Part shown: positions 1,257 to 19,958 of the stretch, piece by piece
Numbering within the stretch: the stretch's first letter is position 1
Layout of the letters: every line of letters starts with the position of its first letter
NCBI GenBank assembly: GCA_949494735.1
Contig: CATABD010000004.1
Coordinates: 1 to 64,000, forward strand
Direction: 5' to 3'
Source: an uncultured Oscillospiraceae bacterium
GTDB taxonomy: Bacteria > Bacillota > Clostridia > Oscillospirales > Oscillospiraceae
DNA length: 64,000 bases
Position numbers and translations under genes: made by a program
The notes under the pieces: model-generated
What the model saw: only the letters and a program-made list of their open reading frames with translations
Told to the model about the DNA's origin: nothing
The model's database searches: none

Positions 1257-1264
1257 ACAGCACA

Positions 1265-1438
1265 ATGAAGAAATATTTTGACTACTTAGACGCACTGCGG
1301 GAATCCGGCGTCACCAATATGTACGGCGCGGTGCCCTACCTTCAGCAGGAGTTCCCGGAGCTGAGCTATGACCACGCCCAAGCTGTCTACATCCTGCGGG
1401 AGTGGATGGCGCACCGTCAGAAGGGTGGGGATGCGTAA
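1265..1438 (+). CDS. 57-aa conserved-looking small protein upstream of VWA gene
   Basis: ATG with ggaggaaca RBS; MKKYFDYLDALRESGVTNMYGAVPYLQQEFPELSYDHAQAVYILREWMAHRQKGGDA; stop overlaps next ATG (taATG). Confidence 0.7.
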   Translation: MKKYFDYLDALRESGVTNMYGAVPYLQQEFPELSYDHAQAVYILREWMAHRQKGGDA

Positions 1439-3021: not shown

Positions 3022-3049
3022 ATCAGGCTATAAAACAAGGCGACGCAAA

Positions 3050-3092
3050 CAGGGGGCAATGGCATTGGGTTGCCATTGTCCCCTGCTTTTTT
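3050..3092 (+). terminator. Intrinsic terminator
   Basis: cagggggcaatggca / tgccattgtcccctg (14 of 15 pairs plus one wobble) then cttttttac. Confidence 0.85.
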
Positions 3093-3195
3093 ACGCAATC
3101 AGTAGGATACGCTTCCGTTAAACTTCTCGTTTACCACATAGCAGGCCGTGCGGTCCTCCGGCTTGACAGACAGCCTCAAATCGGTGATCGATATT

Positions 3196-4344
3196 TTATT
3201 CGTGTTTGGCCTGAACCCAGTCCACCGGCATCCCATTGACCTCCAGCCCCTCCCCGGCAGGGATGAGCAGATACTTCTTCCCGTCGATGATCCGTGTCTC
3301 CACCAGATAGCTCTGCTCCGGCGGCACGGCGATGGTCACATCGGCGGCCTTGACCTCAAACCGCTTGCTGTCGATGAGGTTGGCGGGGCTGAGCGCCGCC
3401 CCTTCTCCGAACAGCTCCCCGCACTTCTCGCAGAATGCGGTAATCTGCGGTTCCTCTGCACCGCAGTCCCGGAGGATGGCCGCCACGTCCTTGGCGGTAA
3501 CGGCCAGGGGCTCCGGGTCTTTGGTCTCCCGGTGCTCCTCAATCTTGGCGGTCAGCCGCTCATGGACGGCCTGCACCACCTCCAGGCCGCAGGCCCCCTC
3601 CAGCCCCTCCCGCAGGGCGGTCTGGAACGCCTCCCTCTGTTCTCCGGCGGACATGGGCGGTTCGGTGTGGAAGATGGCGTCCAAAAACTCCTGGTGCAGC
3701 TCGTCCGGCTTGCGGGCGTAGGTGAGAGCATTGTAGATATTGGCCGCCCGGTCGTCAAAGGCCGGGAACAGGAAGCCCAGCTCCGGCGGGGAGACGATCT
3801 GACTGGGGGCGCAGTTGTGGAACTCATTTTCGCCCGCGCAGTAGCTCAGCTCCAGTTTGCCGTCCTTCACCGGGCACACACAGCACACAATGTAGGAGAA
3901 CACCGTGTCGCCCTCATCCGCGCGATCCTCGCCGTCTTTGCCTCGGTGGGGCACATCGTAGGCGTCGTGGGCCAGCAGGATCAGATAATTGCTCTCTCCC
4001 ATGTCCAGGCTGTCGATGACCGTCTGATAGAATTCCTGCCGCACCTCGCCGTCCTTCAGCCGGGAGTCCCGCAGAGCCATGAGGCGGCGGTGCTCATCGC
4101 TGTCCGCCACCTGCTGGGTGGAGAACACGATGTCGATGAGGTTCCGGCCCAGGGCCCCGGACAGGGTCTTTTTCAGCAGGGCTAAGTATTTCTCCGCCTC
4201 CTCCTCGGGCATCCGGTCCAAGGACTCGTCCAGGTAGGAGACGATCTCCTTTTGACTGTTCACATAGCAGCCGTAAATGCGGCCGATGGCGTTTTTGCCC
4301 AGCCGGAAGCGGCGCTTCAGCTCGCTGATCTCTTTCTGATTCAT
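3196..4344 (-). CDS. DUF4317-like protein
   Basis: MNQKEISELKRRFRLGKNAIGRIYGCYVNSQKEIVSYLDESL matches remembered DUF4317 N-terminus. Confidence 0.8.
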   Translation of the reverse strand: MNQKEISELKRRFRLGKNAIGRIYGCYVNSQKEIVSYLDESLDRMPEEEAEKYLALLKKTLSGALGRNLIDIVFSTQQVADSDEHRRLMALRDSRLKDGEVRQEFYQTVIDSLDMGESNYLILLAHDAYDVPHRGKDGEDRADEGDTVFSYIVCCVCPVKDGKLELSYCAGENEFHNCAPSQIVSPPELGFLFPAFDDRAANIYNALTYARKPDELHQEFLDAIFHTEPPMSAGEQREAFQTALREGLEGACGLEVVQAVHERLTAKIEEHRETKDPEPLAVTAKDVAAILRDCGAEEPQITAFCEKCGELFGEGAALSPANLIDSKRFEVKAADVTIAVPPEQSYLVETRIIDGKKYLLIPAGEGLEVNGMPVDWVQAKHE

Positions 4345-4441
4345 GGTGACCTCGCAGTTTCAAATGTATTTTGCGCGGCGGTGGAAATTCTGGACCGCGC
4401 AATCAAAGCAGACGTCTTATTATAGGGAGAAGCGGCAAAAC

Positions 4442-4852
4442 TTACAAGTCCTGCCCCAGAATTGGGGCTTCAACTTCTAAAATGTCCTCAATGGGGATGG
4501 CGGTGCCGTCTGTGAGGATAACCCGACCCTCCAATGGGTCGATTTTTTTGATCGTACCCACGGCATCCACATAGGTCCCGCCGTCTTTTTTCCCATCGGG
4601 CAGAAAATATGTGAATATGGCTTCTCCGCCTGTCTCACACAGATACCGCAGCTTTTCATCCAGCACGGCCTTTTCGTCCTCGGTGAGCTCTATTCGTTCC
4701 CCGGTGACACGGGCCGTCTCCCGGATGGCCGAACCGAAGCCGGAAAGGGCCTGAAAGGGCGAAAACTGAGCCGCCCGGTCTATCATACGCATACGGGGAT
4801 GCCTGGGCGAGGTGGGATGAGGCAGGTGGATGATGTCGTCATAAGCTCCCAT
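4442..4852 (-). CDS. YolD-like protein
   Basis: HPRMRMIDRAAQFSPFQALSGFGSAIRETARVT; adjacent to UmuC-like gene, the usual pairing. Confidence 0.85.
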   Translation of the reverse strand: MGAYDDIIHLPHPTSPRHPRMRMIDRAAQFSPFQALSGFGSAIRETARVTGERIELTEDEKAVLDEKLRYLCETGGEAIFTYFLPDGKKDGGTYVDAVGTIKKIDPLEGRVILTDGTAIPIEDILEVEAPILGQDL

Positions 4853-4854
4853 TT

Positions 4855-6378
4855 CTAAGCCTTGTGCCCTCCAATACGACTATTGCGGTCGGCTGCGGTA
4901 GCGCCGTCGATCAGGTTCGTTCCCTTCAAAATGGCGTTCTTGCCGTACTTGCTCTTGATACCCAGCATGGTCTCCTGGAGCTTCCGCTCCTTCGCCAGCT
5001 CTGCCTCCTGGGCTTTTCTTTCGGCCTGTGCGGCGGCATAGTCGGTAAACAAATCCATCTGTTCCATGGCTGGCTCATGTGACACAGCGCTTTCGTCCGT
5101 CACCTGATTGGCGGTGAGATTCATGCGCCGGATCAGCAGATCCTTGTCCACGATGCGGTCATACAGCTCCAAAATCGCCGCCGTGATACGCTTGGAAGAG
5201 GCGGTGCGTTCCTCCAGGTTGGCGGTGCCGTGGGCGTGCTTGGGGACCTGCCGCCCGTAACGGTCTGTCTTGACCTCGCCGTGGTACTGCTTCCGGCGCT
5301 GAGAATCGCGCAGGTTGTCAATGTCATAGCCCACGGTGAGGGTGAGCTGATCTGTCACCAGTCTCTGGCTCACCAGCTCCAGAGCCAGTTGATCCGCCAT
5401 CTCCCAGGCCACCATCCGGGCCTTATCAAAGGTGTAGGGGCAGGTGAGCACCTGGCCGGAGCCCACGCTTTTCGTCTCGGGTTTGTACGCCTTGATATCC
5501 GCCATGGTCGCCGGCTCATATCCCCAAGCGTGGTCGATCAAGAGCTCCGCGTTCACGCCGAACATTTTATAGAGCAATTCCTCGTTGTAGTAATCAGTGG
5601 ATTTTCCGATGGAGCACCGGGCGATATCCCCCATGGTGTACAGCCCCTGGGCCTCCAGCTTTTTGGCGTAGCCCGGACCCACCCGCCAGAAGTCGGTGAG
5701 AGGCCGGTGGTCCCACAGCAGGCGGCGGTAGCTCATCTCATCCATCGCCGCAACGCGTACACCGCTTTTGTCCGGCTTGGTGTGCTTGGCCCAGATATCC
5801 ATGGCCACCTTTGCCAGATACAAGTTCGCGCCGATGCCCGCCGTGGCAGTGATGCCGGTGGTGTCCAACACGTCCAGCACGATCTTCCGGGCCAGCTCCC
5901 GGGGAGTGAGCTTGTAGGTGGGCAGGTAGTTGGTCACGTCCATCAGCACTTCGTCGATGGAGTATGCGGAAATGTCAGAAGGAGCCACATACTTCAGATA
6001 GACATTATAAATCTTCGTGCTCCATTCGATATAGTGAGCCATCCTAGGAGGGACCACCAGATAATCCAGGGCCAGCTCCGGGTGGGCCTTCACGTCCGGG
6101 TCATGCCAGGAGGAGCCGGTGAGCTGCCGCTTTGGAGCCTTCTGCTGCCGTTGGGCGTTCACCTCCGCCACCTTCTGTACCACCTCAAACAGACGCGCCC
6201 GCCCGGAGATGCCGTAGGCCTTCAGGGAGGGGGTGACCGCCAGACAGATGGTTTTATCTGTACGGCTCTTGTCCGCCACCACGAGATTGGTGGTGAGAGG
6301 GTCAAGGCTGCGTTCCACGCACTCGACGGAAGCGTAAAAGCTGCGTAGATCGATGGCCATATACACCCTGTCCTTCAT
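4855..6378 (-). CDS. Y-family DNA polymerase (UmuC/DinB-like)
   Basis: YMAIDLRSFYASVECVERSLDPLTTNLVVAD ... AYSIDEVLMDVT; C-terminal QMDLF clamp-binding motif; start trimmed to MKDRVYMAID. Confidence 0.93.
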   Translation of the reverse strand: MKDRVYMAIDLRSFYASVECVERSLDPLTTNLVVADKSRTDKTICLAVTPSLKAYGISGRARLFEVVQKVAEVNAQRQQKAPKRQLTGSSWHDPDVKAHPELALDYLVVPPRMAHYIEWSTKIYNVYLKYVAPSDISAYSIDEVLMDVTNYLPTYKLTPRELARKIVLDVLDTTGITATAGIGANLYLAKVAMDIWAKHTKPDKSGVRVAAMDEMSYRRLLWDHRPLTDFWRVGPGYAKKLEAQGLYTMGDIARCSIGKSTDYYNEELLYKMFGVNAELLIDHAWGYEPATMADIKAYKPETKSVGSGQVLTCPYTFDKARMVAWEMADQLALELVSQRLVTDQLTLTVGYDIDNLRDSQRRKQYHGEVKTDRYGRQVPKHAHGTANLEERTASSKRITAAILELYDRIVDKDLLIRRMNLTANQVTDESAVSHEPAMEQMDLFTDYAAAQAERKAQEAELAKERKLQETMLGIKSKYGKNAILKGTNLIDGATAADRNSRIGGHKA

Positions 6379-6420
6379 ATCTGGATCACCTCCTGTCTCA
6401 GCGTCCCTCAAGCGGTCTTT

Positions 6421-6457
6421 ATTATACACCAAGGAAACCGAACTGTCCATATGTTCG
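6421..6457 (-). promoter_or_regulatory. Sigma-A-type promoter with overlapping LexA/DinR-like half-palindrome for polymerase/yolD
   Basis: Minus strand CGAACATATGGACA, -35 TGGACA (6444-6449), 17-bp spacer, -10 TATAAT (6421-6426). Confidence 0.7.
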
Positions 6458-6570
6458 ATTAAAAATAGGTGGAACCCCTCCAACTATCCGCCCGGGCCCC
6501 GGCATGGTACAATGAGCCTGTATTTCAGGGCGGAGTAAGTTAGGGCGGAGTAAGCGAGGGAGGAACGGCG

Positions 6571-6648
6571 ATGAAAGGGGTGAAGTCTGCCCTCCGCCGG
6601 ACCGAAACGGCCTGGAAGAACAAAATATCAAGGACAAGAAGACTGTGA
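6571..6648 (+). CDS. Possible 25-aa leader peptide
   Basis: MKGVKSALRRTETAWKNKISRTRRL; gggaggaac RBS 5' of ATG; stop codon lies in terminator stem. Confidence 0.4.
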   Translation: MKGVKSALRRTETAWKNKISRTRRL

Positions 6649-6682
6649 GTTGCCCCTGCGGGGCGGTTCACGGTCCTTTTTT
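6641..6682 (+). terminator. Candidate attenuator hairpin before JAMM/E1 genes
   Basis: gactgtga-gtt-gcccc tgc ggggc-ggt-tcacggtc then ctttttt. Confidence 0.65.
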
Positions 6683-6710
6683 GTCCCCAAAAACGAGAGG
6701 AGCAAAAATC

Positions 6711-8114
6711 ATGAGTGAGCAGAGCGGATTCCCCTTTGGTGAAGTGTCCGACGGTGCCGGCTTGGATATCGACGCCATCTTCGGCGGCGCGTCCGGCGGT
6801 TCCGGCAGCGTAAACCCCTTTGAGTCGGCGTTGACCCAGCAGCCCGCGCCCATCCCGCAGGAGGCACCTCAGACAATAGCGCCCCAACCCGTACCCCAGG
6901 CGGTTCAGCAGCCCGCGCCGTCTGTGTTCCAGAACGTCCAGCCCATTCCGCCCGCCCCGGTCCCGGCGGCGCAGCCCGCTCCGGCCCCCGCGCCTGCGGC
7001 GGCCCCGGCAGCCCAGCCCCCATTGGATATCGACCCCCTGGCCGCCGCTATGGCGGAGCAGGAGGCCAAGACTGAACAGAAAGCGGCCAAGTCCCTGTTT
7101 GAGAAGGCCCCGGTGTTTCTCTACGGCAGCGCCCGGGAGGACATCGCCGACCCCGGCATGACCTTTGAGGAGCTTCGCATCGCCAAGTCGGAGGACTTCC
7201 CTGAGCTGGCCGAGGGCAAGAAGGTGTCCTGGACGGTGGAGTACGGCAAGACCGTCAAGCCCATCGCAGACCCCAAGGGCACCACCATCGCCTCCGTCAA
7301 GAAAGAGATCGAGCTGTCCAAGGCGTTCCTGGACAACCTCAAAAAGGCCAAGAACAAGAACCCGGACTGCCTGGTGAAGCCCCGTGTCACCGCCCAGAGC
7401 AAGGGCATCGCCGCCTATAAGGGCGTGTTCGCCTCATTGGAGGAGGCCCGGGCGTCGGACAAGGCCATCTGCACCATCCCCGGCGCGGACGGCAGGGTGT
7501 ACGAGCTGCGCAAAAACGAGCTGGGCGAATTCATCGCTCCCAAAGACTGCGTGATCGACCTGGAATCGGTCAGGGCCGGGTTTACCCCGGCCCTCCCGCT
7601 GGTTCCCATGGAGCTGCTGGCCCAGATCATTTCCTTCTTTCGGTGCTGCATGACCGGCCCCGAGGAATTTGAGGCACTGGCCCACATCCTCTGGGACAAG
7701 CAGGAGCAGGAATTTGTGGTGCGCGTCCCTGAGCAGACGGTGACCAAATCCCACATCGACGCCGAGCTGAGCCGGGACGATCTGCCGGAGGAACGCTACC
7801 TCCACTATATCGACATCCACAGCCACAACAGCATGGAGGCCAAGTTCTCCTCTGTGGATGACAACGATGAGCGGGCCACCCGGATCTACATCGTGGTGGG
7901 ACGACTGGACAAGTTTTTCCCGGATATCACGGTGCGGATGTCCTGCGGCGGCACCTATCTGACGCTGCCCCCGGGGTGCGTGCTGGAAAGCTTTGGCGCG
8001 GTGTTTCCCGCCGAGTGGCGCACTCAGGTGAAGCTGCTGCGCAGAAGCGTCCCGCCGGTGCTGCGTCCCATGACCGGGACGCCGGGGGAGAAACTCTGGG
8101 AGGCTCGCCAATGA
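6711..8114 (+). CDS. JAB/JAMM (MPN) metalloprotease-like protein with Pro/Ala-rich N-terminus and possible Prok_Ub (PRTRC protein C-like) domain
   Basis: HSHNSMEAKFSSVD = HxHx7SxxD JAMM motif; internal DPGMTFEELRIAKSEDFPELAEGKKVSWTVEYGKTVKPIADPKG resembles PRTRC C. Confidence 0.75.
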   Translation: MSEQSGFPFGEVSDGAGLDIDAIFGGASGGSGSVNPFESALTQQPAPIPQEAPQTIAPQPVPQAVQQPAPSVFQNVQPIPPAPVPAAQPAPAPAPAAAPAAQPPLDIDPLAAAMAEQEAKTEQKAAKSLFEKAPVFLYGSAREDIADPGMTFEELRIAKSEDFPELAEGKKVSWTVEYGKTVKPIADPKGTTIASVKKEIELSKAFLDNLKKAKNKNPDCLVKPRVTAQSKGIAAYKGVFASLEEARASDKAICTIPGADGRVYELRKNELGEFIAPKDCVIDLESVRAGFTPALPLVPMELLAQIISFFRCCMTGPEEFEALAHILWDKQEQEFVVRVPEQTVTKSHIDAELSRDDLPEERYLHYIDIHSHNSMEAKFSSVDDNDERATRIYIVVGRLDKFFPDITVRMSCGGTYLTLPPGCVLESFGAVFPAEWRTQVKLLRRSVPPVLRPMTGTPGEKLWEARQ

Positions 8115-8890
8115 AGTTTTCTATGACCCGCCCGGTGAAGATCGTCATGCTGGGCGCGGGCGGCACAGGAGGCCACATCGCGCCCCACCTGTACCGGCTG
8201 CTGTACTCCCTGCGCCGCCCGGTGCGGTTCATCCTCTGCGACGGCAACGTGGTGGAGGAAAAGAACCTGGTGCGGCAGAACTTTACCCCCGCCGATCTGG
8301 GGGAGAACAAGGCCAAAGTGCTGGCGGAGCGGTATTCCGCCGTGTTCGGCCTGGAGACGGAATATGTACCCTCCTTCGTGGAGGATGAGGATCAGCTTGG
8401 CTCCCTGCTGGAACCGGGCTATCTTTGGATGCGCCAGCCCGGCCACGCTTACAACGTGCGGGTATCGGAGCTGGTGATCCTCATCGGCGCGGTGGACAAC
8501 AACAAATCCCGGCAGCTGTGCCACCGGATGTTCTACCGGGCCACAGAGCTGATTTACATTGACAGCGGCAACGGAGAGTTCACCGGCCAGGTGGTGTGCG
8601 GCGTGCGCCGGGGCGGCAAAACCTATTACCCACCCATCGGCATCGTCTATCCGGACGTGCTGGTGGAGACGGACAAGTTCCCCACGGAGCTGTCCTGCGC
8701 CGAGGCGTCGGTGTCAGCCCCCCAGAGTATGGCGGCCAACATCACGGCGGCCACCATTGTGGTGGACATGGTCTACAACATTTTGGCCACGGGCAGCAGC
8801 ACCGTACGGAAAGTAACCTTTTCCACTCAGACTGTCAACGTGCGGCCTGAGCTGCAAAAAACAAGTACAAGGAGGAAACAAGCGGCATGA
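8111..8890 (+). CDS. ThiF/E1-like adenylyltransferase (PRTRC ThiF-like)
   Basis: IVMLGAGGTGGHIAPHL nucleotide loop; FILCDGNVVEEKNLVRQNF; Cys in ELSCAEASVSAPQSMAANI; ATGA overlap with JAMM gene. Confidence 0.85.
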   Translation: MKFSMTRPVKIVMLGAGGTGGHIAPHLYRLLYSLRRPVRFILCDGNVVEEKNLVRQNFTPADLGENKAKVLAERYSAVFGLETEYVPSFVEDEDQLGSLLEPGYLWMRQPGHAYNVRVSELVILIGAVDNNKSRQLCHRMFYRATELIYIDSGNGEFTGQVVCGVRRGGKTYYPPIGIVYPDVLVETDKFPTELSCAEASVSAPQSMAANITAATIVVDMVYNILATGSSTVRKVTFSTQTVNVRPELQKTSTRRKQAA

Positions 8891-9990
8891 GAACAAGAGT
8901 AGACGCGAAAGCGTTCATCCAGGCACTGGACAGGGTGAGCGGCCTGATCCGCAAATCGGCCATCCCCGTCCTGAACGCCGTGCTGGTTCGGTTCGAGGAG
9001 GACCGCTGTACCCTGACCTCCACCAACATAGAAGCCTACCTGTCCGCGGTGCTGCCCGCCCAGGGGGACGCCTTTGCCTTTTTGCTGGACCGCCCCCGCG
9101 AGACCGCCCGGGCCTTCCGGCAGTTTGAGGGCGAATTGGCCCTGGAGCAGACGGAAACAGGGGAAGGCGACCGGCGGCGGATCAAGCTGGTTCTGTCCTG
9201 CGGGCCCCGTTCCGCGGAGCTGCACCCGTTTCTGCCCGAGGATTTTCCCCGGTATCCGATCTGGGAAGCGAAGGACAGCTTCACCGCCAACGCCGCCCGG
9301 CTGTACGCCCGCGTGGAGCGGGTGAAATACGCTGTGGGGATTCCTCGTAAAGAGGAGGCCAGGGCCTGCGTGGTCAGCGTGCAGTTCAGCGGGAACCGCG
9401 TCTACGCTTTGGACGGCTGCCGCATGGCATGGGATACCGACCCGGAGCTGGATGTGCCCCGGCCCTTTATGGCAGCCCCAGACGCGCTGGAGCATTTGAA
9501 GCTGTTCGGGGATCAGGCGGTCTCCGTCCGGCTGGGGGAGCGGTACGCCGAGGTGGCCGATGGCGTGACGTCGCTGCTGTTCCGTCTGCCGGAGGGCGAG
9601 CTGTTCAAGCTGGACAGCGCCATCCCGGAGCGGTATCAGGTGGAAGCCCAGGTGTCCCCAGCGGAGTTCCTGGCCGAGCTGAAGTATCTGAAGCGATCCC
9701 TGCGGGGAAATCGCGCCCACATGGTGCGCTTCAGCGGCGGCAACCTGCTGGCCGAATCCGCGGGAGAGCGGTACGCCACTAAAATCTCGGCCACCGGGTG
9801 CGACGGCGTAGAATTTGGGTTCAACCTGGACTACATGGCGGACGCCCTGGAGCAGTTTGGCAAGGAACCATCTGTGAAAATGAAAGTAAGCGCCGGTTCC
9901 CTTGGCCCGATCATCTTTGAGGCCGATGGCCGGAACGACCACGCCATGGTGCTGCCTGTGCGGCTGAAAGAAGCCAGCAGGGCCGCGTAA
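8887..9990 (+). CDS. DNA polymerase III beta-subunit-like sliding clamp (element-encoded)
   Basis: 367 aa; FIQALDRVSGLIRKSAIPVLNAVLVRFEEDRCTLTSTNIEAYLSAVLP; ends GRNDHAMVLPVRL. Confidence 0.8.
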   Translation: MRTRVDAKAFIQALDRVSGLIRKSAIPVLNAVLVRFEEDRCTLTSTNIEAYLSAVLPAQGDAFAFLLDRPRETARAFRQFEGELALEQTETGEGDRRRIKLVLSCGPRSAELHPFLPEDFPRYPIWEAKDSFTANAARLYARVERVKYAVGIPRKEEARACVVSVQFSGNRVYALDGCRMAWDTDPELDVPRPFMAAPDALEHLKLFGDQAVSVRLGERYAEVADGVTSLLFRLPEGELFKLDSAIPERYQVEAQVSPAEFLAELKYLKRSLRGNRAHMVRFSGGNLLAESAGERYATKISATGCDGVEFGFNLDYMADALEQFGKEPSVKMKVSAGSLGPIIFEADGRNDHAMVLPVRLKEASRAA

Positions 9991-10003
9991 AAAGGAGAAA
10001 ACT

Positions 10004-10477
10004 ATGGATTTCAAAGAATTTAACAGGCTCTACCGCAAGGATACTATCTCGTTTTTGATCGCCCTGAACCTGTACCTGGGCTACGGAAGCACCGTACTCA
10101 GGGCGGGCTCCAGGGAGGATCTTTCCGGGGCGGCGGCCCTGGAGATCTCAAGCCTGTTCGCGGAAGAAAAGCGGGATCACATCATCGAAACGGCGCGGAA
10201 GCTGGCCGAGATGGAGCCCAACGATTTGATCCCGTACATCTCCCAGTGCGGCATCCGTGCCGGGGCCAGCAGCTCGGATGAGCCTGGCGTCTGCCCGGTG
10301 TGCGGCGGCAGGATCAGGTACGACCACCAAGGCTCCTCGGAGTGGAACTTCATCCTGACCTGGCAGTGCCTGGACTGTCAGGCCACCGGCGAGGAGAACC
10401 ACCACCTGGTGTTTGACGCCCACTATAACCTGCATGAGAAGAACGGGGATCCCATTCCCCGGAGATATCAGAAATAG
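10004..10477 (+). CDS. Hypothetical protein with zinc-ribbon-like motif
   Basis: CPVCGG...CLDC in a 157-aa ORF with RBS. Confidence 0.7.
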   Translation: MDFKEFNRLYRKDTISFLIALNLYLGYGSTVLRAGSREDLSGAAALEISSLFAEEKRDHIIETARKLAEMEPNDLIPYISQCGIRAGASSSDEPGVCPVCGGRIRYDHQGSSEWNFILTWQCLDCQATGEENHHLVFDAHYNLHEKNGDPIPRRYQK

Positions 10478-10491
10478 GAGGAGAGCGCACA

Positions 10492-11061
10492 ATGAAAACC
10501 GTTTATATCCCCACCGGGACAGAAGTTTCCCATATGAACCTAGCCACCGGGCATTTGGTGGTAGACGGCAGCCTGACCATCACCGGCACGCTCAAGGCCA
10601 AAACCATCGGAGGCCGGGGCTTCGTGGAGGCGGGCACTGTGTCCGCCGACGGCATCCAGGTGGATGATCTGAAGGCGGTCAGCGTCACCTGCCGGCGGCT
10701 GTACGCAAAGCGGGCGGAGGCGTCCCAGATCTTCGCGTCGGAGGGCATTGACGTGTCCTGTTTCCTGGGCGCGGACCGGGTAGTGACGCCCAAGCTGACC
10801 GTGGCTCTCAGCGACATCGACGAGGTGACGGTGGATGAGACTGTCCACCTGCCGCCGAAAAAGCGGAGCCTGCTCCGCTTCTGGCTGGCGTCCGCCTTGC
10901 GGTCGCTGTTGATCAGGCTCACCGCAGATGACGGGAGCCAGGTAATCGACGCGGAGTATAAGCCCGCAGATGAGCACAAAAATGTATACCAAATCGGAGC
11001 CCAGCGCAATGGGTCCGATTTGGAGAGGAGGAGTGGCGAGACAAATGAGCGTTCGGCGTAG
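10492..11061 (+). CDS. Bactofilin/polymer-forming-cytoskeletal-like protein
   Basis: Repetitive beta-helix pattern LVVDGSLTITGTLKAKTIGGRGFVEAGTVSADGIQVDDLKA; RBS ggaggag. Confidence 0.55.
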   Translation: MKTVYIPTGTEVSHMNLATGHLVVDGSLTITGTLKAKTIGGRGFVEAGTVSADGIQVDDLKAVSVTCRRLYAKRAEASQIFASEGIDVSCFLGADRVVTPKLTVALSDIDEVTVDETVHLPPKKRSLLRFWLASALRSLLIRLTADDGSQVIDAEYKPADEHKNVYQIGAQRNGSDLERRSGETNERSA

Positions 11062-11166
11062 CCGGAAGCAAAGGATGTGAAGCCTATGACAACGAGGCTG
11101 CGGGCGAACCAAGGGACAGGGAGCGGCCGCTTCCTGTCCTCCCATTACATCGAGGAGGTCAAGAAA

Positions 11167-11616
11167 ATGTCCCACAAATCACAGGAAAGGAATATGCGCA
11201 GGCTGGCCGGGCTGCTGGGCCAGGAGCTGAGCTATATCTGGGGCGGGAAAGAGAGCGGCCCCAACGGCGCGAAGAAGCAATTTTTGAATACGGGCCGGAC
11301 ATTCCTCCGGGCGCTGGGCAAAGACCTGGGCCTGCGGGACGCCGAGGCGCACTCTAATCCCGGCGGCATCGCCGTGCCTGGGGACTGCTCCCTGATCGGG
11401 ATGTGGCAGACCAACGGGCTGTATGTCCATCTGTCCCAGCCCTGCTGCGACCGGGAGCGGGTGCTGCTCTACCGCACCGTCCGCCACAGCAAAGACTACA
11501 CCGGCGGGCGGAATCTGTATCTCACCCGCCGGGATCTGGCGGAGATGAGCTATCCCGACCTGCTGTTCCTTCTGGCGTCGGTGCGGGAGGAGGGCGCCCA
11601 TGAGCGGGCAGCCTGA
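11167..11616 (+). CDS. Hypothetical element protein
   Basis: gaggagg RBS before ATG 11167; overlaps next gene start. Confidence 0.65.
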   Translation: MSHKSQERNMRRLAGLLGQELSYIWGGKESGPNGAKKQFLNTGRTFLRALGKDLGLRDAEAHSNPGGIAVPGDCSLIGMWQTNGLYVHLSQPCCDRERVLLYRTVRHSKDYTGGRNLYLTRRDLAEMSYPDLLFLLASVREEGAHERAA

Positions 11617-13015
11617 CGTATCTCAGGCCGGACAGCGCAGCTATGCCCTGGAGAGGCTGCGGGGGCTTCAAAGTGAAGTCCCCCAGCTCACCCAGGCCAT
11701 GGTGCTGTGCCGGGCCAGGGTGGAGCAGCACCGAAACACCGACCTTGCCGCCGCCCGGGACGAGTACAATGATTTGCAAAATGCCCGGAAGCGGCTCGCT
11801 GAGGCGTTGGGCGAGGTCCAGCTTTTGCTGATGGAGGTGGAGGAATACCATCTGGCCGCCAACGCGGGACAGCTGAAGGAGGGCCTGCTGGGCTTTGACC
11901 TGCTGAGCAATACCTACCGCCCGGTATACGACGCGCTGAACGGCTTTGCCGCCCGGCTTCCCGTGGACGGAACTACCAACGCCCAAGTGGTGGGGCGGCT
12001 GATGAACAACATTAAAATGGGCTATTACCCCACCGACCCGGACAACATCTCGCTGATTTTGAAGGGCGTCCAGTTCCCGGAGGGTGTCACCACCAACCTG
12101 CTGGACCCCTGCTGCGGCTGCGGAAAGGCTCTGCGGCAGATGGCCGACGGGAACAACTGCTACACCTACGGCGTGGAGCTGGACGGGGCCCGGGCCGATG
12201 AGGCACAGACCCGGCTCCATCGGGTGGGCTTCGGCAGCTTCTTTTTCAGCCAGGTCAGCGCCAACGCCTTTCATCTGCTGTTTCTCAACCCGCCCTACCT
12301 GTCCGTCCTCAATGAGAGCGGCGGCCGGGCGCGGCACGAGAAGCGGTTCCTCATCGAAAGTCTGGGCACGCTTGCCCTGGGCGGGCTGCTGGTGTATGTG
12401 ATCCCCTATTACCGGCTCACGCCGGATATTTGCCGGGTACTGACGGACAATTTTGAAAACCTGAGCCTGTGGCGGTTTACCGATGCCGAGTTCAAAAAGT
12501 TCAAGCAGGCGGCCATCCTGGGCACTCGAAAAAAACGGGATGTTGTTCCCCAGGATACCCAATGGCTGGAGTGGTTTTCCACCCATCCCGGTTCCATTCC
12601 CTGCCTCACGGAATTGCCCGAGGGGCGCTACGCGCTCCCAGCCAAACCGCTGGAGGTAAAGACCTTCCGGGGTGAGAAGTTCAACAAGAAGGAGCTGGAG
12701 CGGCAGCTGGGCCGTTCGGACAGCTTTCAGCGGATGATGGCCCGCAGCGAGCTGGACAGCGGGGTGAAGCGCCCGCCGCTGCCCCTGTCCATCAGCCAGA
12801 TCGGTCTGATCGGCGGCTCGGGGTTGATTAACGGCCTGATCGAGTGTGACACGCCCCACGTCATCAAGGGACGGATTGTGAAGGTGACCCGGAACGAGAC
12901 GGAGGAGCAGTTTGACGCCAAGGGGCGGCACACTGGCGCTGAGCTCCACGAGACCATTACCAACAAAATGATATTCAACATCTTGACGCCCAACGGCTTC
13001 AAGGCGCTGACGTAG
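11600..13015 (+). CDS. DUF6094-like / N6-adenine methyltransferase-fold protein
   Basis: LLDPCCGCGKALRQMA (motif I-like) and LFLNPPYLSVL (NPPY motif). Confidence 0.75.
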   Translation: MSGQPDVSQAGQRSYALERLRGLQSEVPQLTQAMVLCRARVEQHRNTDLAAARDEYNDLQNARKRLAEALGEVQLLLMEVEEYHLAANAGQLKEGLLGFDLLSNTYRPVYDALNGFAARLPVDGTTNAQVVGRLMNNIKMGYYPTDPDNISLILKGVQFPEGVTTNLLDPCCGCGKALRQMADGNNCYTYGVELDGARADEAQTRLHRVGFGSFFFSQVSANAFHLLFLNPPYLSVLNESGGRARHEKRFLIESLGTLALGGLLVYVIPYYRLTPDICRVLTDNFENLSLWRFTDAEFKKFKQAAILGTRKKRDVVPQDTQWLEWFSTHPGSIPCLTELPEGRYALPAKPLEVKTFRGEKFNKKELERQLGRSDSFQRMMARSELDSGVKRPPLPLSISQIGLIGGSGLINGLIECDTPHVIKGRIVKVTRNETEEQFDAKGRHTGAELHETITNKMIFNILTPNGFKALT

Positions 13016-13027
13016 AGGAGAATTTTT

Positions 13028-13312
13028 ATGAGTGTTATTACTGTGAATCCCCGGTTCAACCCGGGCAGGCTGATGATTACCCGCAACGCGAAGAATGCGC
13101 TCCCCCGCAGAGAGGTGGACGCCGCCATCAACCGTCACCTGAGCGGGGACTGGGGCGATGTGTGCCAGTCCGATTGGCAGCGCAACGAGCAGGCGCTGCG
13201 CGATGGCGACAGGCTGTTGTCTGTCTACCAGACCCAGGCCGGCGAGAAGTTCTGGATCATCACGGAATCGGACCGTTCCACCACCACCGTCCTGCTCCCC
13301 AGCGACTGTTGA
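13028..13312 (+). CDS. Small conserved plasmid-type hypothetical protein
   Basis: 94-aa ORF in operon with RBS gaggag. Confidence 0.6.
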   Translation: MSVITVNPRFNPGRLMITRNAKNALPRREVDAAINRHLSGDWGDVCQSDWQRNEQALRDGDRLLSVYQTQAGEKFWIITESDRSTTTVLLPSDC

Positions 13313-13324
13313 GGGGGTGGGCGC

Positions 13325-13624
13325 GTGAGTATGAAGCTGAACCTGAAACTGCTGTCCACCCGGTTTTCCCAGGCGAAGGAGCAGCTGTATGTGCCGGATG
13401 ACGGCGTCAACCCCTATCTGCTGGAGCATATTCTGCGCCCCAATCTAGAGGGGGAGTTTCTCCGCCTGGGGGACATCGACTTTGACGCTTTTGAAGCGGA
13501 CGACGTGCCCGCGCTGGAGGAGTATTACGACAGGCTGTATAAAACGTCGCAGAATCTCGCCCAGTTCGCGCAGACTGTGGCCCGGGTTCCGCCCGCCCCC
13601 AAGGCGGCGCGCGTGTTTTGCTGA
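13325..13624 (+). CDS. Hypothetical protein
   Basis: 99-aa ORF, GTG start, tightly packed in operon. Confidence 0.55.
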   Translation: MSMKLNLKLLSTRFSQAKEQLYVPDDGVNPYLLEHILRPNLEGEFLRLGDIDFDAFEADDVPALEEYYDRLYKTSQNLAQFAQTVARVPPAPKAARVFC

Positions 13625-13633
13625 GGTGCCGCC

Positions 13634-14203
13634 ATGGAGGATCTGAGTTCTTACTTTTTCCATATGCTGTACCTGGCGAAAACGGTTCATGACAATCCAA
13701 GATTGAAAAAAGGGTGGCCGTCGTTTAACAGCATTCCCCTGGATGAAGACGCGTTTTATGAGCTGTCCATGGAATTGGCTGTGTCGATCTTTGAAGATAC
13801 CAGCAGCTACTATAACGAGGAATCGGGTATAGAGACCTGGGTGCTGTCCGATCCCATGGTAGACCGCTTCTGTGAGCTGTGCGCACGGCTTGAAACGGAA
13901 AAAGGGCTGGAGGAGGGGATCAACCCCTACCGCCGAAACGCCGAGCAGGTGATCCACGAGGGTTTCCGTCTGAACAGCTACAGCTATGACTACGGCTGGC
14001 GGCTGTCCGCCGGTGATCGGGGACGCTGGTGTGTCCTGTTTTTCTCGAACGAGGAGTTTTATGGGCTGGAGGAACTGCCCATGGCATTTATGGAAATCCT
14101 GGACGGGTTTCAAGAGCTGAACCGGCAGCTGGAAGCGGTGCTGGGTCTGAACAAGATCGTCCCCATCTACTCGATGCCAAACGAATGGAAGGAGGCTGCG
14201 TGA
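13634..14203 (+). CDS. Hypothetical protein
   Basis: 189-aa ORF; end overlaps next start. Confidence 0.65.
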   Translation: MEDLSSYFFHMLYLAKTVHDNPRLKKGWPSFNSIPLDEDAFYELSMELAVSIFEDTSSYYNEESGIETWVLSDPMVDRFCELCARLETEKGLEEGINPYRRNAEQVIHEGFRLNSYSYDYGWRLSAGDRGRWCVLFFSNEEFYGLEELPMAFMEILDGFQELNRQLEAVLGLNKIVPIYSMPNEWKEAA

Positions 14204-14880
14204 TGCGGCCAGAATTTGATATGACCATCCACATCAGCACCGAGCGCGGCGAGGTGGTGGTGGAGCAGCAAAAAGCGGGCGGCGTCACCACCCATAAAAA
14301 CATCACGCCCCAGGCCCTGTGCGACTGCTTCCTCACCAGCCGTTATGATGATGAACGCCGCCCTACCGGGCTGCTGCCCGAGGGCTGCATCGCGGTGGTG
14401 ATGGAGAAGAAGTACGTCACCTATTTCATGCGCTATCCGGAGCTGTACGCGGACATCACCTACTATGACACCGAGTACCGGGATTTCCCGCTGCCCCGGC
14501 TAGTGTTCGGCTTCCAGTATATGCCCCAGGAGGGCAAGGTGGCCGGATGCCGGGTCTGCGTGGCGAAGGATGAGCGGCGGCTGACGCCGGACACGCCCAC
14601 TTACCGTTACCCATTTTCCAACGTGCATGGGAACAACAGCATCTGCACTGGGAACAACGCCCTGCCCATCTACAGGGACCCCGCCCGGCTGCACACGCTG
14701 ATGGGCTATCTCCTGCGTCTGCCCAACAACAACGACCTCTATTCCAGGGACAACAACCGGCTCCATGCCGAGTACCGCGACCTCTTAGAGCAGATGAAGG
14801 GGAAAACGCCGTCCCACTATTACACCGATGTGCTGGTGCCGGACGGCGGAACACTGAGAGACTTTTTGGACGCGAGGTGA
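14203..14880 (+). CDS. Prokaryotic E2-like (Prok-E2_D / PRTRC protein B-like) protein
   Basis: YRYPFSNVHGNNSICTGNNALP resembles the catalytic-Cys region of PRTRC protein B; overlapped start (tgATG). Confidence 0.6.
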   Translation: MRPEFDMTIHISTERGEVVVEQQKAGGVTTHKNITPQALCDCFLTSRYDDERRPTGLLPEGCIAVVMEKKYVTYFMRYPELYADITYYDTEYRDFPLPRLVFGFQYMPQEGKVAGCRVCVAKDERRLTPDTPTYRYPFSNVHGNNSICTGNNALPIYRDPARLHTLMGYLLRLPNNNDLYSRDNNRLHAEYRDLLEQMKGKTPSHYYTDVLVPDGGTLRDFLDAR

Positions 14881-15758
14881 ACACAGTGAAAGAAAAAGAC
14901 CCGAGACAGATCCAGGCGGAGCTGGCCATGCCCTTCGCGCCGGAGGATTTAGAATGGCGGCTGCAAAAGGTGATCGAGGCAAGGGAACTGGGCATTGCCG
15001 TCCCCTACGTTACCAACCGGGCCATCATGGGCCGGCTGGATGACGTGGTGGGGGCGGAGAACTGGTACAACGAGTTCAAGCCCTGGCACGGCGCCGGCGG
15101 AAAAGAAGCCCAGTTGTGCGGCATCTCCATCCGTTATGGAGAGGGCTTCATCACCAAATGGGACGGCGCTGAGAATTCGGACATCGAGCCTGTGAAGGGC
15201 GGTCTGTCCGACAGCATGAAGCGAGCCGCCGTCCAGTGGGGCATCGGCCGGGTGCTGTATAACATGGATGTGGTCTTTGTGGACGTGGAAAAGCGGGGCA
15301 AGACCTGGTACATGAAAAAGGACCAGCAGGAGCGTTTGGACTACGCCTATCTCAAGATGTTGGGCAAGCTGAACCTCACTCCGGCCCCGGCCGGCGGTCT
15401 GCGGCCCCAGGCGGAGACGGAGGGCGGCGGCGAAGGCCCGGCGGGACAGGCCAAGCCGGCTGAAACATCCGGCGGTAAGACCGAAGGGATGCCTGCGGGC
15501 GGAAGCAAACCGGAGGGCATCACCTACATTATCCGCCATGCCCGGATCAACAAGGGCATGAATTCCAGCAGCACCCAGCTGAAGCTGGAGTCCTCCCAGG
15601 GGGACAAGCTGGAAGCCTTTGTGCGCGGAGAGCATCCCGAGCTGGCCGTGGGCGTTGTTTTAGCCAACGCAAAGCTGGAAAAGCGGCAGAAGGATACCGT
15701 GGTCTACTATATGCTGGAGGAGTTCAAAATCGCGGAGACACAGCCCCAGGCGGCGTAG
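14877..15758 (+). CDS. Rad52/22-like single-strand annealing protein
   Basis: VTNRAIMGRLDDVVGAENWYNEFKPW...CGISIRYGEGFITKWDGAE...GGLSDSMKRAAVQWGIGRVLYNM. Confidence 0.88.
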   Translation: MNTVKEKDPRQIQAELAMPFAPEDLEWRLQKVIEARELGIAVPYVTNRAIMGRLDDVVGAENWYNEFKPWHGAGGKEAQLCGISIRYGEGFITKWDGAENSDIEPVKGGLSDSMKRAAVQWGIGRVLYNMDVVFVDVEKRGKTWYMKKDQQERLDYAYLKMLGKLNLTPAPAGGLRPQAETEGGGEGPAGQAKPAETSGGKTEGMPAGGSKPEGITYIIRHARINKGMNSSSTQLKLESSQGDKLEAFVRGEHPELAVGVVLANAKLEKRQKDTVVYYMLEEFKIAETQPQAA

Positions 15759-15771
15759 AGAGGAGCGGAAC

Positions 15772-17580
15772 ATGGAGAAAATCCAAAGCTTTCAGATCAC
15801 CGACATGACCATCGCCGGGTTCAAATCCTATGTGGAGCCTACGAACCTGGTGTTCGGCAATCCTACAGTCATCACCGGCGGCAACGGACGGGGCAAAACC
15901 AGCATCGCAGACGCCATCGCCTTCGTAGTCACCGGCCTCCCCTTTTTCGGGGAGCGGGGCATCGACCGGCTGCACAACGAGGTTCAGCCCGATGTGTCCA
16001 TCACCATGAGCTTTGTGGATGAAACGGGCACGGCCCATGTGCTCACCCGCACCCGGCACAAAAACCGCATGACCATCCTCTATGACAGCTGCGAGATCCG
16101 CCAGATGGATCTCACCGAACTGTTTGGAGAGAAGGACGTATTCCTGTCCATCTTTAACCCTCTCTACTTCATCGAGGAGCTGGGGGAGGATGGCAAAAAC
16201 CTGCTGGAGCGGCACCTGCCCCTGATTTCCCATGAGGCGGTGCTGGCCCAGCTCTCCGACGCCACCCGGGCGGCCCTGGAGCATGAGCAGCTTCTCTCGC
16301 CGGACACCTACCTGAAGAAAAAGCGGGCGGACATCCGGGAGCTGGAGGAGACCATCATCTACCTCCAGGGTCAGAAGGATCTGGCGGACAGCCAGGCCCA
16401 GGACTGGAGCAGGACTGTAGAGGGCCTGTCCGCCCGCCGCGACACCCTTATCAGGACGGTGGAATCCCTGGAGGCCAAGCGGTTCGGCGGCTTGGACGCC
16501 AAGGCCATGGAGCAGCGGCTGGTGGAGCTCAGCGCCCGCTACGACGAAGCGGCCCGGGACGGCTCGCCCCTGGACGCGGAAATTTTGGAAGTAGAGCGGA
16601 AGCTGGCCGCCCGGAGGGCGGAGCAATACCAGTCCCCCTACACCCAGGCCGTGGCCGAGGCCAACGCCCGGCTGGCGGAGCTGGCCGAGCGGTTCAACCG
16701 GGACAAGCAGGCGTTCCACGCCTGTGTCCCCGGCGCGCCCTGCCCCACCTGCCGCCGCCTCATTACTGAGGAGGCCCTGCCGGAAATCCGGGCCGCTCTG
16801 GAACAGTCCTCAAAGGCGGCCATCGCCGCCGGACAGGAGCAGCGGGCCCAGCTCAATGAGCTGACGGAGAACGACGCCAAGGCCAGGGCGGTCTTTGAGC
16901 AGTTCCAGGCCGATGATGTAGCCAAGCTGGAAGGGCAGCTGGCCGGCCTTCGGGCCCAAAAGACGGAGGACAGCCCCGCGGACGATCTGCGCTCCCAGAT
17001 CCAGCAGCTTACTTCTGATTTGGAGTACGGAAATCTCTCTGAGGCGGAGTACGCTCAGTTGAAGGAGTGCCGGGAGGAACTACGGGAGTGCGTCGCCGAT
17101 TTGAAGGCGGCCCAGGCCGCGGCGGAGCAGAGGCCGGAGGACTTTGACGGAAAGATCAAAGCCGCCCAGGACAAGATCACGGCGCTGAAAAAGCTGATCG
17201 CCGACGTTGCCATCTATGTGAGCGAACGGGCAAAGCTGACCTTCTCGGCGCTGAAAATGAACCGAGTGGAGATCTCCCTCTACGACGTGGTAAAGTCCAC
17301 CGGGGAGCGGAAAGACGTGTTCAAGTTTACCTACGGCGGGCGGCGCTATGACCGGCTTTCCCTGTCCGAGAAGATCCGGGCGGGGATGGAGGTGTCCGAA
17401 CTGATGAAACGGCTCACTGGGCGCAATTACCCGGTGTTCGTGGACAACATGGAGTCGGTGGACGACCTCAACAACGTGCGGCCCACCGGGCAGGTCATCA
17501 TGGCCAAGTGCGTCAGCGGCGCGCCCCTGGCGGTGCGGCCTGTGCGGCCTATTGACGTGGCCCAGCGGCAGGCGGCGTAG
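15772..17580 (+). CDS. Rad50/SMC-like AAA ATPase
   Basis: Walker A GGNGRGKTSIADAI; coiled coil; CPTC zinc-hook-like motif; C-terminal VFVDNMES. Confidence 0.85.
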   Translation: MEKIQSFQITDMTIAGFKSYVEPTNLVFGNPTVITGGNGRGKTSIADAIAFVVTGLPFFGERGIDRLHNEVQPDVSITMSFVDETGTAHVLTRTRHKNRMTILYDSCEIRQMDLTELFGEKDVFLSIFNPLYFIEELGEDGKNLLERHLPLISHEAVLAQLSDATRAALEHEQLLSPDTYLKKKRADIRELEETIIYLQGQKDLADSQAQDWSRTVEGLSARRDTLIRTVESLEAKRFGGLDAKAMEQRLVELSARYDEAARDGSPLDAEILEVERKLAARRAEQYQSPYTQAVAEANARLAELAERFNRDKQAFHACVPGAPCPTCRRLITEEALPEIRAALEQSSKAAIAAGQEQRAQLNELTENDAKARAVFEQFQADDVAKLEGQLAGLRAQKTEDSPADDLRSQIQQLTSDLEYGNLSEAEYAQLKECREELRECVADLKAAQAAAEQRPEDFDGKIKAAQDKITALKKLIADVAIYVSERAKLTFSALKMNRVEISLYDVVKSTGERKDVFKFTYGGRRYDRLSLSEKIRAGMEVSELMKRLTGRNYPVFVDNMESVDDLNNVRPTGQVIMAKCVSGAPLAVRPVRPIDVAQRQAA

Positions 17581-17599
17581 GGGGTGAGTCCGTCTGGCC

Positions 17600-18664
17600 G
17601 TGAAGCAATACGAAAAAATCCCCATCGTGGACGCGGCCAGACGGTGCGGCATAGCCTTGGATTCCCGGACGCTGCGGCATCGGGAGGTGGAGGCCACCTG
17701 CCCCTTCTGCCACGACCACGGGCCGGGGAAGTACCATCTCAGCCTGAACACCGCCACCGACCAGTACCGCTGCCACCTGTGCGGCGCCCATGGCAACAGC
17801 GTGACGCTGTACGCCCGGCTCATGGGCGTGACCAACCGGGAGGCATACCAGGCGCTGAAACAGGAGGGCAAGGTCTACCCCATGTCCAGGCGGGAAGCAT
17901 CCCCATCGGACGCCGAACGCCAGCCCTTGCCCCTGGAACAGCGGCATGAGGCGTACACCGCCATGCTGGACCACCTGACGCTGCTGGATAAGCACCGGGA
18001 AAACCTGCTGGAGCGGGGGCTGTCTGAGGAGCGCATCCAGGCAAATCAGTACCGAAGTATGCCGGAAACGGAGGCGGGGCGGCGGCTTTTGGCCGCCCTG
18101 CTCCGCTCCTGTGGCCATGAGCTGCTGGGGCTGCCGGGGTTCCGTACTTACTATGGCGATTGGACGATCACCGGCCCAAAGGGCTTCTTGATCCCTGTCC
18201 GCAACAAAAACGGGCTGATCCAGGGCATGAAGATCCGCCTGGACGACGCGGACAAGCCAAACCGAAAATACCGCTGGCTGTCCAGCCGGGATCTGCCCAA
18301 CGGCACGCGCAGCTATTCCTACATCCATGTCACCGGCGACACCACCCAAAAGCGGGCCTTCCTCACGGAGGGCCCGCTAAAGGGGGACGTGGCCAGCTAC
18401 CTGGCCCATGACGCGCTGTTTGTGTGCGTGGGCGGGGTAAATGCCATCCGCGGGCTGAAGAAAACGCTGATGGGATTGGGCGTCTCCCGGGTGGTGGAGG
18501 CCATGGATATGGACCAAATGACCAACCCAGATGTCCGCAATGCCGTGCTGGCGATGCGGAGGGAAGTGCAGGCCATCAAGGGCCTAAAATACACGAAATA
18601 CACATGGGACCCGGCGTACAAGGGGATCGATGATTACCTTCTCAGTCGGGTAGAGGCCATGTGA
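17600..18664 (+). CDS. CHC2 zinc-finger / Toprim-like primase
   Basis: CPFCHDHGPGKYHLSLNTATDQYRCHLCGAHGNSVTLYARLMG; Toprim-like C-terminal half; GTG start. Confidence 0.85.
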   Translation: MKQYEKIPIVDAARRCGIALDSRTLRHREVEATCPFCHDHGPGKYHLSLNTATDQYRCHLCGAHGNSVTLYARLMGVTNREAYQALKQEGKVYPMSRREASPSDAERQPLPLEQRHEAYTAMLDHLTLLDKHRENLLERGLSEERIQANQYRSMPETEAGRRLLAALLRSCGHELLGLPGFRTYYGDWTITGPKGFLIPVRNKNGLIQGMKIRLDDADKPNRKYRWLSSRDLPNGTRSYSYIHVTGDTTQKRAFLTEGPLKGDVASYLAHDALFVCVGGVNAIRGLKKTLMGLGVSRVVEAMDMDQMTNPDVRNAVLAMRREVQAIKGLKYTKYTWDPAYKGIDDYLLSRVEAM

Positions 18665-18682
18665 AAAAACAGGAGGGCAAGT

Positions 18683-19660
18683 ATGGATAACGTATTTGAT
18701 ATGCACGATTTTATTGGCACGTCCCAGGGCGACGAGGCCCATATGCTGGGCAAGTTTCTCTATTTCTCCCTGGCGAACCTGCTGGTGGACAAAGAGGATC
18801 TGTCCAAGCTGTGCGAGGACATGGGCATCCCCTACGCCGGCGGCACCCGGCTGTCCGTGGGGGACGCGTTCCGCTCCGCCACCGGCGACATCCGGGAGCG
18901 CATCCCGGTGACGGCCATGGGGGAGACCAATATCTACCTGGCCTACTGCCGGGACAATAAACGCACCAGCGCCGATATTTTATCCCGGGAGCTGGTGAAG
19001 GAGACGCTGAACCAGCGTACCAACAACTACGAAAAGCTGGCGAACATCAGCTATGATAAGAAAGACGGCGTGTTTCGAGCGGAAAACATGGCACCGGACG
19101 ACGCCATCGACGTGCCGGCCTGCTGCCGCAAGGCGGAGGAGCTGTTCGAACTCTATCAGAAGTGCGCCAACCGAAAACAGATCGAAACCATCTGCGTCAA
19201 TTATCTGCGGGGGCTGGAGGCCACCAAGCTGAGCATCACAGGGCATATGTACTTCGTGCCCCGCACCCACATGGACAAGGTGGACGTGTTTGAGGACTTC
19301 ATCGGCCTGCTGGGCGGGCTCAACCGCAGAGAGACGCCGCTGATGGTGAACAGCTTTTTCATTATCGACGATGAAAAGCAGCGGTCTAAAATGACCGAGG
19401 AATTCTATGCGGCGGTGAAGAAGGAAATTGCTACCTACCAGGAGCGGGCGGACTACCTCATCAAATCCGGCAGCCAGAGCCCGGCGGTGATGGAGCGTTG
19501 GGTGCTGAAGATCCAGGCGCTGGAGGAGAAAAAGAAGCACTATGAGGGTGTACTCCGTCGGGAACTGGATGGCTTGGACGATGAATTTTCCACGCTGAAG
19601 TTCCTGGGGCAGGAGCTCCAAATGAGGGCACAGAGTATTCGCTTTCAAAAGGCGGCATAA
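18683..19660 (+). CDS. Conserved element protein (possibly DUF6744-like)
   Basis: 325-aa ORF at end of the operon; family name from memory only. Confidence 0.55.
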   Translation: MDNVFDMHDFIGTSQGDEAHMLGKFLYFSLANLLVDKEDLSKLCEDMGIPYAGGTRLSVGDAFRSATGDIRERIPVTAMGETNIYLAYCRDNKRTSADILSRELVKETLNQRTNNYEKLANISYDKKDGVFRAENMAPDDAIDVPACCRKAEELFELYQKCANRKQIETICVNYLRGLEATKLSITGHMYFVPRTHMDKVDVFEDFIGLLGGLNRRETPLMVNSFFIIDDEKQRSKMTEEFYAAVKKEIATYQERADYLIKSGSQSPAVMERWVLKIQALEEKKKHYEGVLRRELDGLDDEFSTLKFLGQELQMRAQSIRFQKAA

Positions 19661-19673
19661 ACGGGAATAAGCG

Positions 19674-19711
19674 TGCGGGGGAAGGTTCAGTCTTCCCCCG
19701 CATTGTTTTCT
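19674..19711 (+). terminator. Intrinsic terminator closing the element operon
   Basis: tgcgggggaag / cttcccccgca perfect 11-bp stem then ttgttttc. Confidence 0.8.
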
Positions 19712-19958
19712 CTATTTGTTGCGATGCCTCTTATGCAATTAAATAGAAAGCCTTTCACATAGCATGAGCCTGGAGCCTGTCTCTTAACGAGATGTGGTCT
19801 GTTAGCTGGCCGTTTCGTCTCCTAATATTGGGTATCGTTCTGCTCCAGCTTCTCTGGCGAGCAGCAGTGGACTGCCAGACTATAATAAAAATAATGGTTT
19901 GTATGCAACTGGCAGGCTGTGCTCTGGCACAAGAACGGCTGACAGCTCAATGTGCTTC

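Follow-up and report, generated by a model that had tools for sequence, protein, structure and literature searches.

We analysed a stretch of 64,000 nucleotides from an uncultured Oscillospiraceae bacterium (assembly GCA_949494735.1, contig CATABD010000004.1, positions 1 to 64,000), in the following referred to as the window, which covers the initial 64 kb of a contig of 72 kb and contains a mobile element cut off by the contig start. An operon of 15 genes on the + strand (6711-19660; gaps between the genes of -17 to +19 nucleotides) was predicted to encode a JAB-type protease, an E1-like activating enzyme and an E2-like conjugating enzyme, the open reading frames (ORFs) of which are all preceded by ribosome-binding sites. 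The N-terminal part of the JAB protein appears to be a ubiquitin-like modifier (Ubl). The features of this cassette are:

6711..8114, + strand: Ubl-JAB fusion of 467 amino acids, consisting of a disordered Pro/Ala/Gln-rich N-terminus, the Ubl, a JAB-N-like linker domain and the JAMM protease
7110..7406, + strand: beta-grasp domain resembling ubiquitin (residues ~134-232); its end, K231-G232, is the predicted terminus for cleavage and conjugation
7671..7859, + strand: JAMM active site, with E321 at 7671 and H370-S-H372...S380..D383 at 7818-7859
8111..8890, + strand: E1-like activating enzyme of the ThiF family, predicted catalytic Cys196 at 8696-8698
14203..14880, + strand: E2-like conjugating enzyme (Prok-E2_D/PRTRC_B-like according to profile matches), Cys148 at 14644-14646

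The JAB protein matched the PRTRC_A (TIGR03735, E 2.8e-12) and Prok-JAB (E 2.5e-4) profiles. Its JAMM motif (H370-S-H372-x7-S380-x2-D383) and E321 show no variation among 11 members of the family, nor in a set of 19 sequences that includes phage homologues, and its sequence and AlphaFold model display the zinc site (E...HxHx7SxxD) and the JAB fold that characterise JAMM/MPN+ proteins. The closest structural matches of the model were CsRpn11 in complex with ubiquitin (top), Cap3, AMSH and PfJAMM1-SAMP2. The JAMM-motif protein proposed in an earlier note on this DNA is thus encoded with all of its metal-site residues. The proposed ThiF/E1-like protein (ThiF, E 3.2e-12; PRTRC_ThiF, E 1.8e-28) is likewise encoded at the stated position and shows the features of the E1/ThiF superfamily: the GxGGxG core and the candidate catalytic cysteine (C196 in ELSC) are conserved among 22 homologues, C196 being invariant.

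The product of 14203-14880, likened in the note to PRTRC protein B and Prok-E2, matched Prok-E2_D above the curated cut-off (E 2e-8) as well as PRTRC_B (E 2.4e-8). Its C148, located within YPFSNVHGNNSIC, is invariant in 26 homologues, while P174, N176 and D178 were found in place of an invariant histidine downstream of the cysteine. These profile matches support the assignment as a putative E2-like protein with a candidate UBC fold.

The ubiquitin-like domain of the JAB protein

A search of the bacterium's own genome with the Pfam model Prok_Ub gave no match, and thus no separate Prok_Ub gene. This absence is explained by the location of the Ubl domain within the JAB protein, where it was recognised by comparing the N-termini of the JAB proteins with their relatives on Bacillota plasmids. 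The earlier note had made its proposal depend on a Ubl domain somewhere in the operon and had overlooked the one present here. The ORF at 13325-13624 was considered as a Ubl as well and was rejected, its product being a homologue of protein X of the Bacillota plasmids with FC, FF or FL instead of glycine at the C-terminus.

The tail of the domain in the window reads T-A-Q-S-K231-G232. All 11 aligned clostridial fusions have this final KG, which also occurs in 16 of the 17 Bacillota-type Ubls, with NG in the remaining one, and six of the seven stand-alone Ubls terminate at that glycine. Separate Ubl proteins ending in ...GAKKG* or ...GAKNG* are encoded on plasmids of Bacillus halotolerans, B. 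velezensis, B. paralicheniformis and B. thuringiensis israelensis, and one of these small proteins carries a MoaD/ThiS family annotation. In Metabacillus and Cytobacillus the Ubl ends in ...GGAKG* and its gene overlaps the following JAB gene, whereas the Ubl of Rossellomorea has two further residues after the KG. The Ubl forms the N-terminal part of the JAB protein, with the KG in its interior, in Thermobacillus, Paenibacillus, Lysinibacillus, Sporosarcina, Alkalihalophilus, Alicyclobacillus and Rubrobacter. Gene fission exactly at the KG provides the best argument for a free KG end as the functional state. A second argument comes from large phages, several of whose separate Ubl genes are tandem repeats joined at an internal GTKG, an arrangement to be expected if a protease acts at this point, with a JAB of this family encoded next to them. 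The assumption that stand-alone Ubls are strictly accompanied by the loss of the JAB gene holds by half, since JAB is absent from two of four such plasmids.

The profiles of the window-type and the Bacillota Ubls matched each other over the region of the first helix (hhalign, E 2.3e-6). Among 14 Bacillota Ubls, five matched Pfam Prok_Ub (best E 3.6e-5) and two matched ThiS. Modelled alone with AlphaFold, the Ubl domain of the window reached a predicted local distance difference test score (pLDDT) of 86.9 and a predicted template modelling score of 0.78, with the order beta-beta-alpha-beta-beta-(helix-helix)-beta and a floppy SKG tail. A Foldseek search with this model returned mostly ubiquitin-like folds (UBL of USP15 and USP11, Atg8, FAT10, elongin B, ubiquitin), with no match of any kind at E < 0.001, and sequence searches of the PDB with the Ubl profile gave chance matches only. 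The full-length model shows disorder over residues 229-252, with pLDDT values below 50 from residue 229 on, which places the KG at the start of a flexible linker.

Operon context and relation to known systems

The remaining genes of the operon and its flanking hairpins are:

8887..9990, + strand: DNA polymerase III beta subunit (sliding clamp), divergent, by profile matches
10004..10477, + strand: zinc-ribbon-like protein of 157 amino acids, weak matches only
10492..11061, + strand: conserved operon protein without assigned function, by locus comparison
11077..11616, + strand: conserved operon protein without assigned function, by locus comparison
11600..13015, + strand: DUF6094 methyltransferase-like protein (NPPY), E 9.9e-176
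13028..13312, + strand: small conserved operon protein, by locus comparison
13325..13624, + strand: X, small acidic protein; Bacillota plasmids encode a homologue two genes upstream of E2 (hhalign, E 3.2e-6)
13634..14203, + strand: Y, directly upstream of E2, likened to a Bacillota plasmid gene by position only
14877..15758, + strand: Rad52-family protein, 33% identity to annotated Rad52/Rad22
15772..17580, + strand: Rad50/SMC-type AAA ATPase
17600..18664, + strand: CHC2 zinc-finger primase-like protein
18683..19660, + strand: DUF6744, last gene of the operon
6641..6675, + strand: leader hairpin with T-tract, 35 nucleotides 5' of the JAB start, conserved with covariation in related loci
19673..19703, + strand: hairpin resembling an intrinsic terminator, 3' of the last gene

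All neighbours named in the earlier note (sliding clamp, NPPY methyltransferase-like protein, Rad52, Rad50/SMC and primase) were recovered, the NPPY protein being DUF6094. The note had also expected the E1, E2 and JAB genes to co-occur across related elements, and this was the case in 17 complete clostridial loci spanning JAB to E2 (window, L025, L027, L030-L033, L036, L038-L040, L107, L110, L113, L114, L055/L090, L057/L092). The set keeps its order in all of them, and the loci are part of integrative and conjugative elements (ICEs) where the context is long enough. E1, DUF6094 and Rad52 were detected in 17 of 17, SMC and primase wherever the contig extends that far. Since the order is conserved across independent genomes, a chance grouping can be ruled out. 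The distribution is patchy: E2 relatives were found in 14 of 301 genomes of the same family and JAB relatives in 9 of 396 genomes of the same order. The matches of a single-sequence E2 query of genome contigs were confined to two contigs from one very closely related genome.

In the chromosome-level genome G292 the module is preceded by genes predicted to encode TrbL, PrgI, a TraG-type ATPase and a CD1115-family VirD4 coupling protein, and furthermore RepA_N, another beta clamp and a von Willebrand factor A (vWA) protein paired with a MoxR/RavA-type ATPase. This gene context indicates that the element in G292 is an ICE. On plasmids of Bacillaceae the order Rad52-dnaN-X-Y-E2-JAB-E1 was observed in Sutcliffiella and, nearly so, in B. 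thuringiensis CT-43 and Cytobacillus, while dnaX is located directly 3' of E1 in Sporosarcina and Lysinibacillus. The link to replication and recombination therefore holds in two distant groups of Bacillota, which also share a homologous protein X.

Homologues of the proteins PRTRC_A, PRTRC_ThiF and PRTRC_B occur together in one element here as in the PRTRC systems (TIGR03735-TIGR03737). The homology is significant, but none of the three reaches its curated PRTRC cut-off (PRTRC_A 46.6 versus 101.8, PRTRC_ThiF 99.5 versus 144.75 and PRTRC_B 33.6 versus 131.45 bits). A stand-alone PRTRC protein C is also lacking, as the genome gave no Prok_Ub match and the Ubl is fused to JAB. Neither the ParB-related nuclease nor proteins D, E and F were detected among ten window proteins and seven ICE genes of G292, the element in the window being cut. 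The PRTRC-like nature proposed in the earlier note thus stands as far as profiles and invariant catalytic residues are concerned, but not in the sense of a curated PRTRC member. None of the three observations named in the note as refuting its proposal was made.

Class 6d of Iyer, Burroughs and Aravind comprises operons with a JAB, an E1, an E2-like protein with conserved cysteine, a small stand-alone Ubl with C-terminal glycine and a helical accessory protein, and includes B. cereus and B. thuringiensis (PMC1779556). The JABs of such operons were predicted to mature and remove the Ubls (PMC1779556). The window shares the JAB, the E1 and the E2-like protein with its cysteine in one operon, and a helical accessory protein. 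A beta-grasp domain with an invariant KG is present, but as a part of the JAB protein; in some Bacillus plasmids it is stand-alone. The window further differs in that the Ubl contains a two-helix insert, that the downstream histidine of the E2 is lost and that the operon additionally contains Rad52, SMC, primase and DUF6094. Judged by its sequences, the set is a divergent relative of PRTRC and class 6d in which modifier and protease are fused. This fusion is not mentioned in the text of PMC1779556, and the open full-text literature on PRTRC and Prok-E2, with later reviews by Burroughs and Aravind outside this scope, contained neither a description of it nor a functional study; priority for the fusion is therefore uncertain.

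Processing of a ubiquitin precursor by a JAMM enzyme, with cleavage after the terminal glycine, was described for CsRpn11 (PMC6043591), the top match of the JAB model, although this CsUb/CsRpn11 system is archaeal, has separate genes and is not part of a replication operon. BilABCD likewise combines Ubl, E1, E2 and JAB, and BilC cuts the precursor BilA after its terminal glycine (reviewed in PMC11354881), as predicted for the window. In contrast to the double-Ubl BilA, the window has a single Ubl fused to JAB, and its short ThiF-type E1 (259 amino acids) is not a large E1 with an inactive adenylation domain and a Cys domain.

A few features accompany the operon. The terminator-like leader hairpin is present in most related loci, and in an alignment of 12 loci compensatory changes affect 9 of its 19 pairs, even though the DinB gene preceding it in the window is oriented divergently. 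It might act as a transcription attenuator for the entire operon. Rfam gave no match within window positions 1-20000. Genes for DUF4317, YolD and a Y-family polymerase (DinB/UmuC-like) are located divergently upstream (3196-6483), and in Thermobacillus a similar polymerase/YolD pair lies ~10 kb away from the cassette. Genes for vWA proteins are located at 1438-3021 of the window, L105:14671-16044 and L028:12535-14112. A vWA protein accompanies the module, following the MoxR/RavA-type ATPase in G292, and one with 30% identity is also encoded near E2 on a cyanobacterial plasmid. Group II intron-type reverse-transcriptase genes were found inside or beside the E1, E2 and JAB genes of four Bacillota plasmids (L024:9245-12677, L047:7709-9613, L049:7997-9793, L054:3908-5719), interrupting the E1 gene in Paenibacillus lautus. 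The same metagenome-assembled genome contains a second, ~87% identical copy of the element (L003:10456-11112, G000:C26), which has lost the region from mid-E1 to late SMC and retains an in-frame E1-SMC fusion ORF. This loss is either a real deletion or an assembly chimera.

Possible function of the cascade

It appears rather probable that the operon encodes a ubiquitin-like cascade borne by a mobile element, in which the modifier is synthesised at the N-terminal side of the JAMM protease that serves it and the likeliest targets are proteins of the operon. The presence of all catalytic residues, the fold and the KG end of the Ubl and the conservation of the operon suggest a system that probably produces a protein tag of its own, couples it to targets and takes it off again. 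We infer that the cut by JAB would fall after K231-G232, whether in cis or in trans, and would free the Ubl with a glycine terminus, which the E1 would adenylate before loading the Ubl on C196. By thioester transfer C148 of the E2 would then receive the Ubl and pass it to target proteins, probably aided by the X and Y proteins, while JAB may also strip the tag from its targets. Operon linkage points to the element's own replication and recombination proteins as likeliest targets, and their modification could provide a switchable control of the replication or transfer of the element.

Several observations weigh against this interpretation. The class 6d catalytic-site histidine downstream of the cysteine is not conserved in the E2 alignment, and a sequence search of the PDB with the E2 profile gave no real match. 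Some Bacillus plasmids encode E1, E2 and Ubl without any JAB. Furthermore, operon linkage is no proof of substrate identity, and it is partial for the sliding clamp, which adjoins the cassette in just nine of the 17 complete loci and was not detected beside it in the other eight. Taking into account that eight clamps of these elements share no conserved lysine, the clamp does not seem to be a universal conserved acceptor; linkage favours Rad52, SMC, DUF6094 and primase over it as candidates. Our literature search found no biochemistry for this cassette family.

Alternatively, the cascade might tag proteins of phages or rival plasmids, as Bil and type II CBASS do, and merely ride along with the replication genes. 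Such a role in defence or competition between elements would agree with the similarity of the E1 to the E1 domains of defence E1-E2 proteins, with the patchy and mobile distribution and with the antiviral function of those bacterial Ubl cascades whose function is known (PMC10097602; Bil, reviewed in PMC11354881). However, PADLOC detected no complete defence system among ten operon proteins, the cassette is fixed in a replication and repair operon rather than in a defence island, and it is carried by phages themselves, so that we regard this role as unlikely. Even less likely, the Ubl could remain uncleaved as a fixed targeting or autoregulatory domain of the JAB protein, as in USP enzymes, another Ubl being the true modifier. 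The best Foldseek match, the DUSP-UBL of USP15, is indeed a fixed Ubl domain, and cleavage of Ubl-JAB is a prediction. Nevertheless, the KG is invariant although the linker to which it belongs is disordered, the genes of relatives are split precisely at the KG or encode the Ubl alone with a KG end, and the own genome lacks a separate Prok_Ub match. Sulfur-carrier chemistry, in which E1 and Ubl would form a thiocarboxylate and JAB would mature the Ubl without any protein tagging, seems very improbable in spite of the ThiF-type E1 and the PAPS-reductase-family genes that three Bacillota plasmids carry close to the cassette, because a dedicated E2 with invariant cysteine is present in every case and no sulfur gene was seen among the clostridial operon genes.

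A tagging cascade that is fed by a self-processing modifier-protease fusion and dedicated to replication and recombination of mobile elements would parallel the control of PCNA and Rad52 by ubiquitin and SUMO in eukaryotes, a more specific proposal that we consider tentative and somewhat doubtful. Although class 6d and PRTRC have been recognised since 2006, no experimental function was found in the literature. The locus represents a compact and complete version in which the modifier is located, the predicted cut site (after G232) is sharp and a single transcription unit supplies a short list of candidate substrates. Confirmation of the targets would mean that bacterial mobile elements, too, have their DNA replication and recombination controlled in a ubiquitin-like manner.

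Related cassettes in large phages

Relatives of the E2-JAB-E1 cassette were detected on viral contigs of 168-188 kb and in the isolated phages Arash (Salmonella) and D69, D181 and D148 (Vibrio); a viral scan with a closer E2 alignment gave three loci. The JAB proteins encoded beside the phage Ubl genes belong to the same family and are devoid of a fused Ubl. Ubl genes were located at L060:7477-7860, L062:7486-7875, L072:7317-7739, L082:7321-7743, L086:7220-7645 and, in Vibrio phage D69, L124:3352-4143. Several of them consist of head-to-tail repeats resembling polyubiquitin and ending in GTKG. The two repeats of L072 are identical in 66 of 66 amino acids while 31 of 198 nucleotides differ, and those of L062 in 59 of 59 amino acids with 20 of 177 nucleotides differing, all changes being synonymous. 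The Ubl of Vibrio phage D69 contains three repeats, followed by a short cap at the C-terminus (INYSK). In Salmonella phage Arash the E2-like and E1-like proteins gp248c and gp246c (L123:1519-4539) are annotated as structural and might be carried in the virion.

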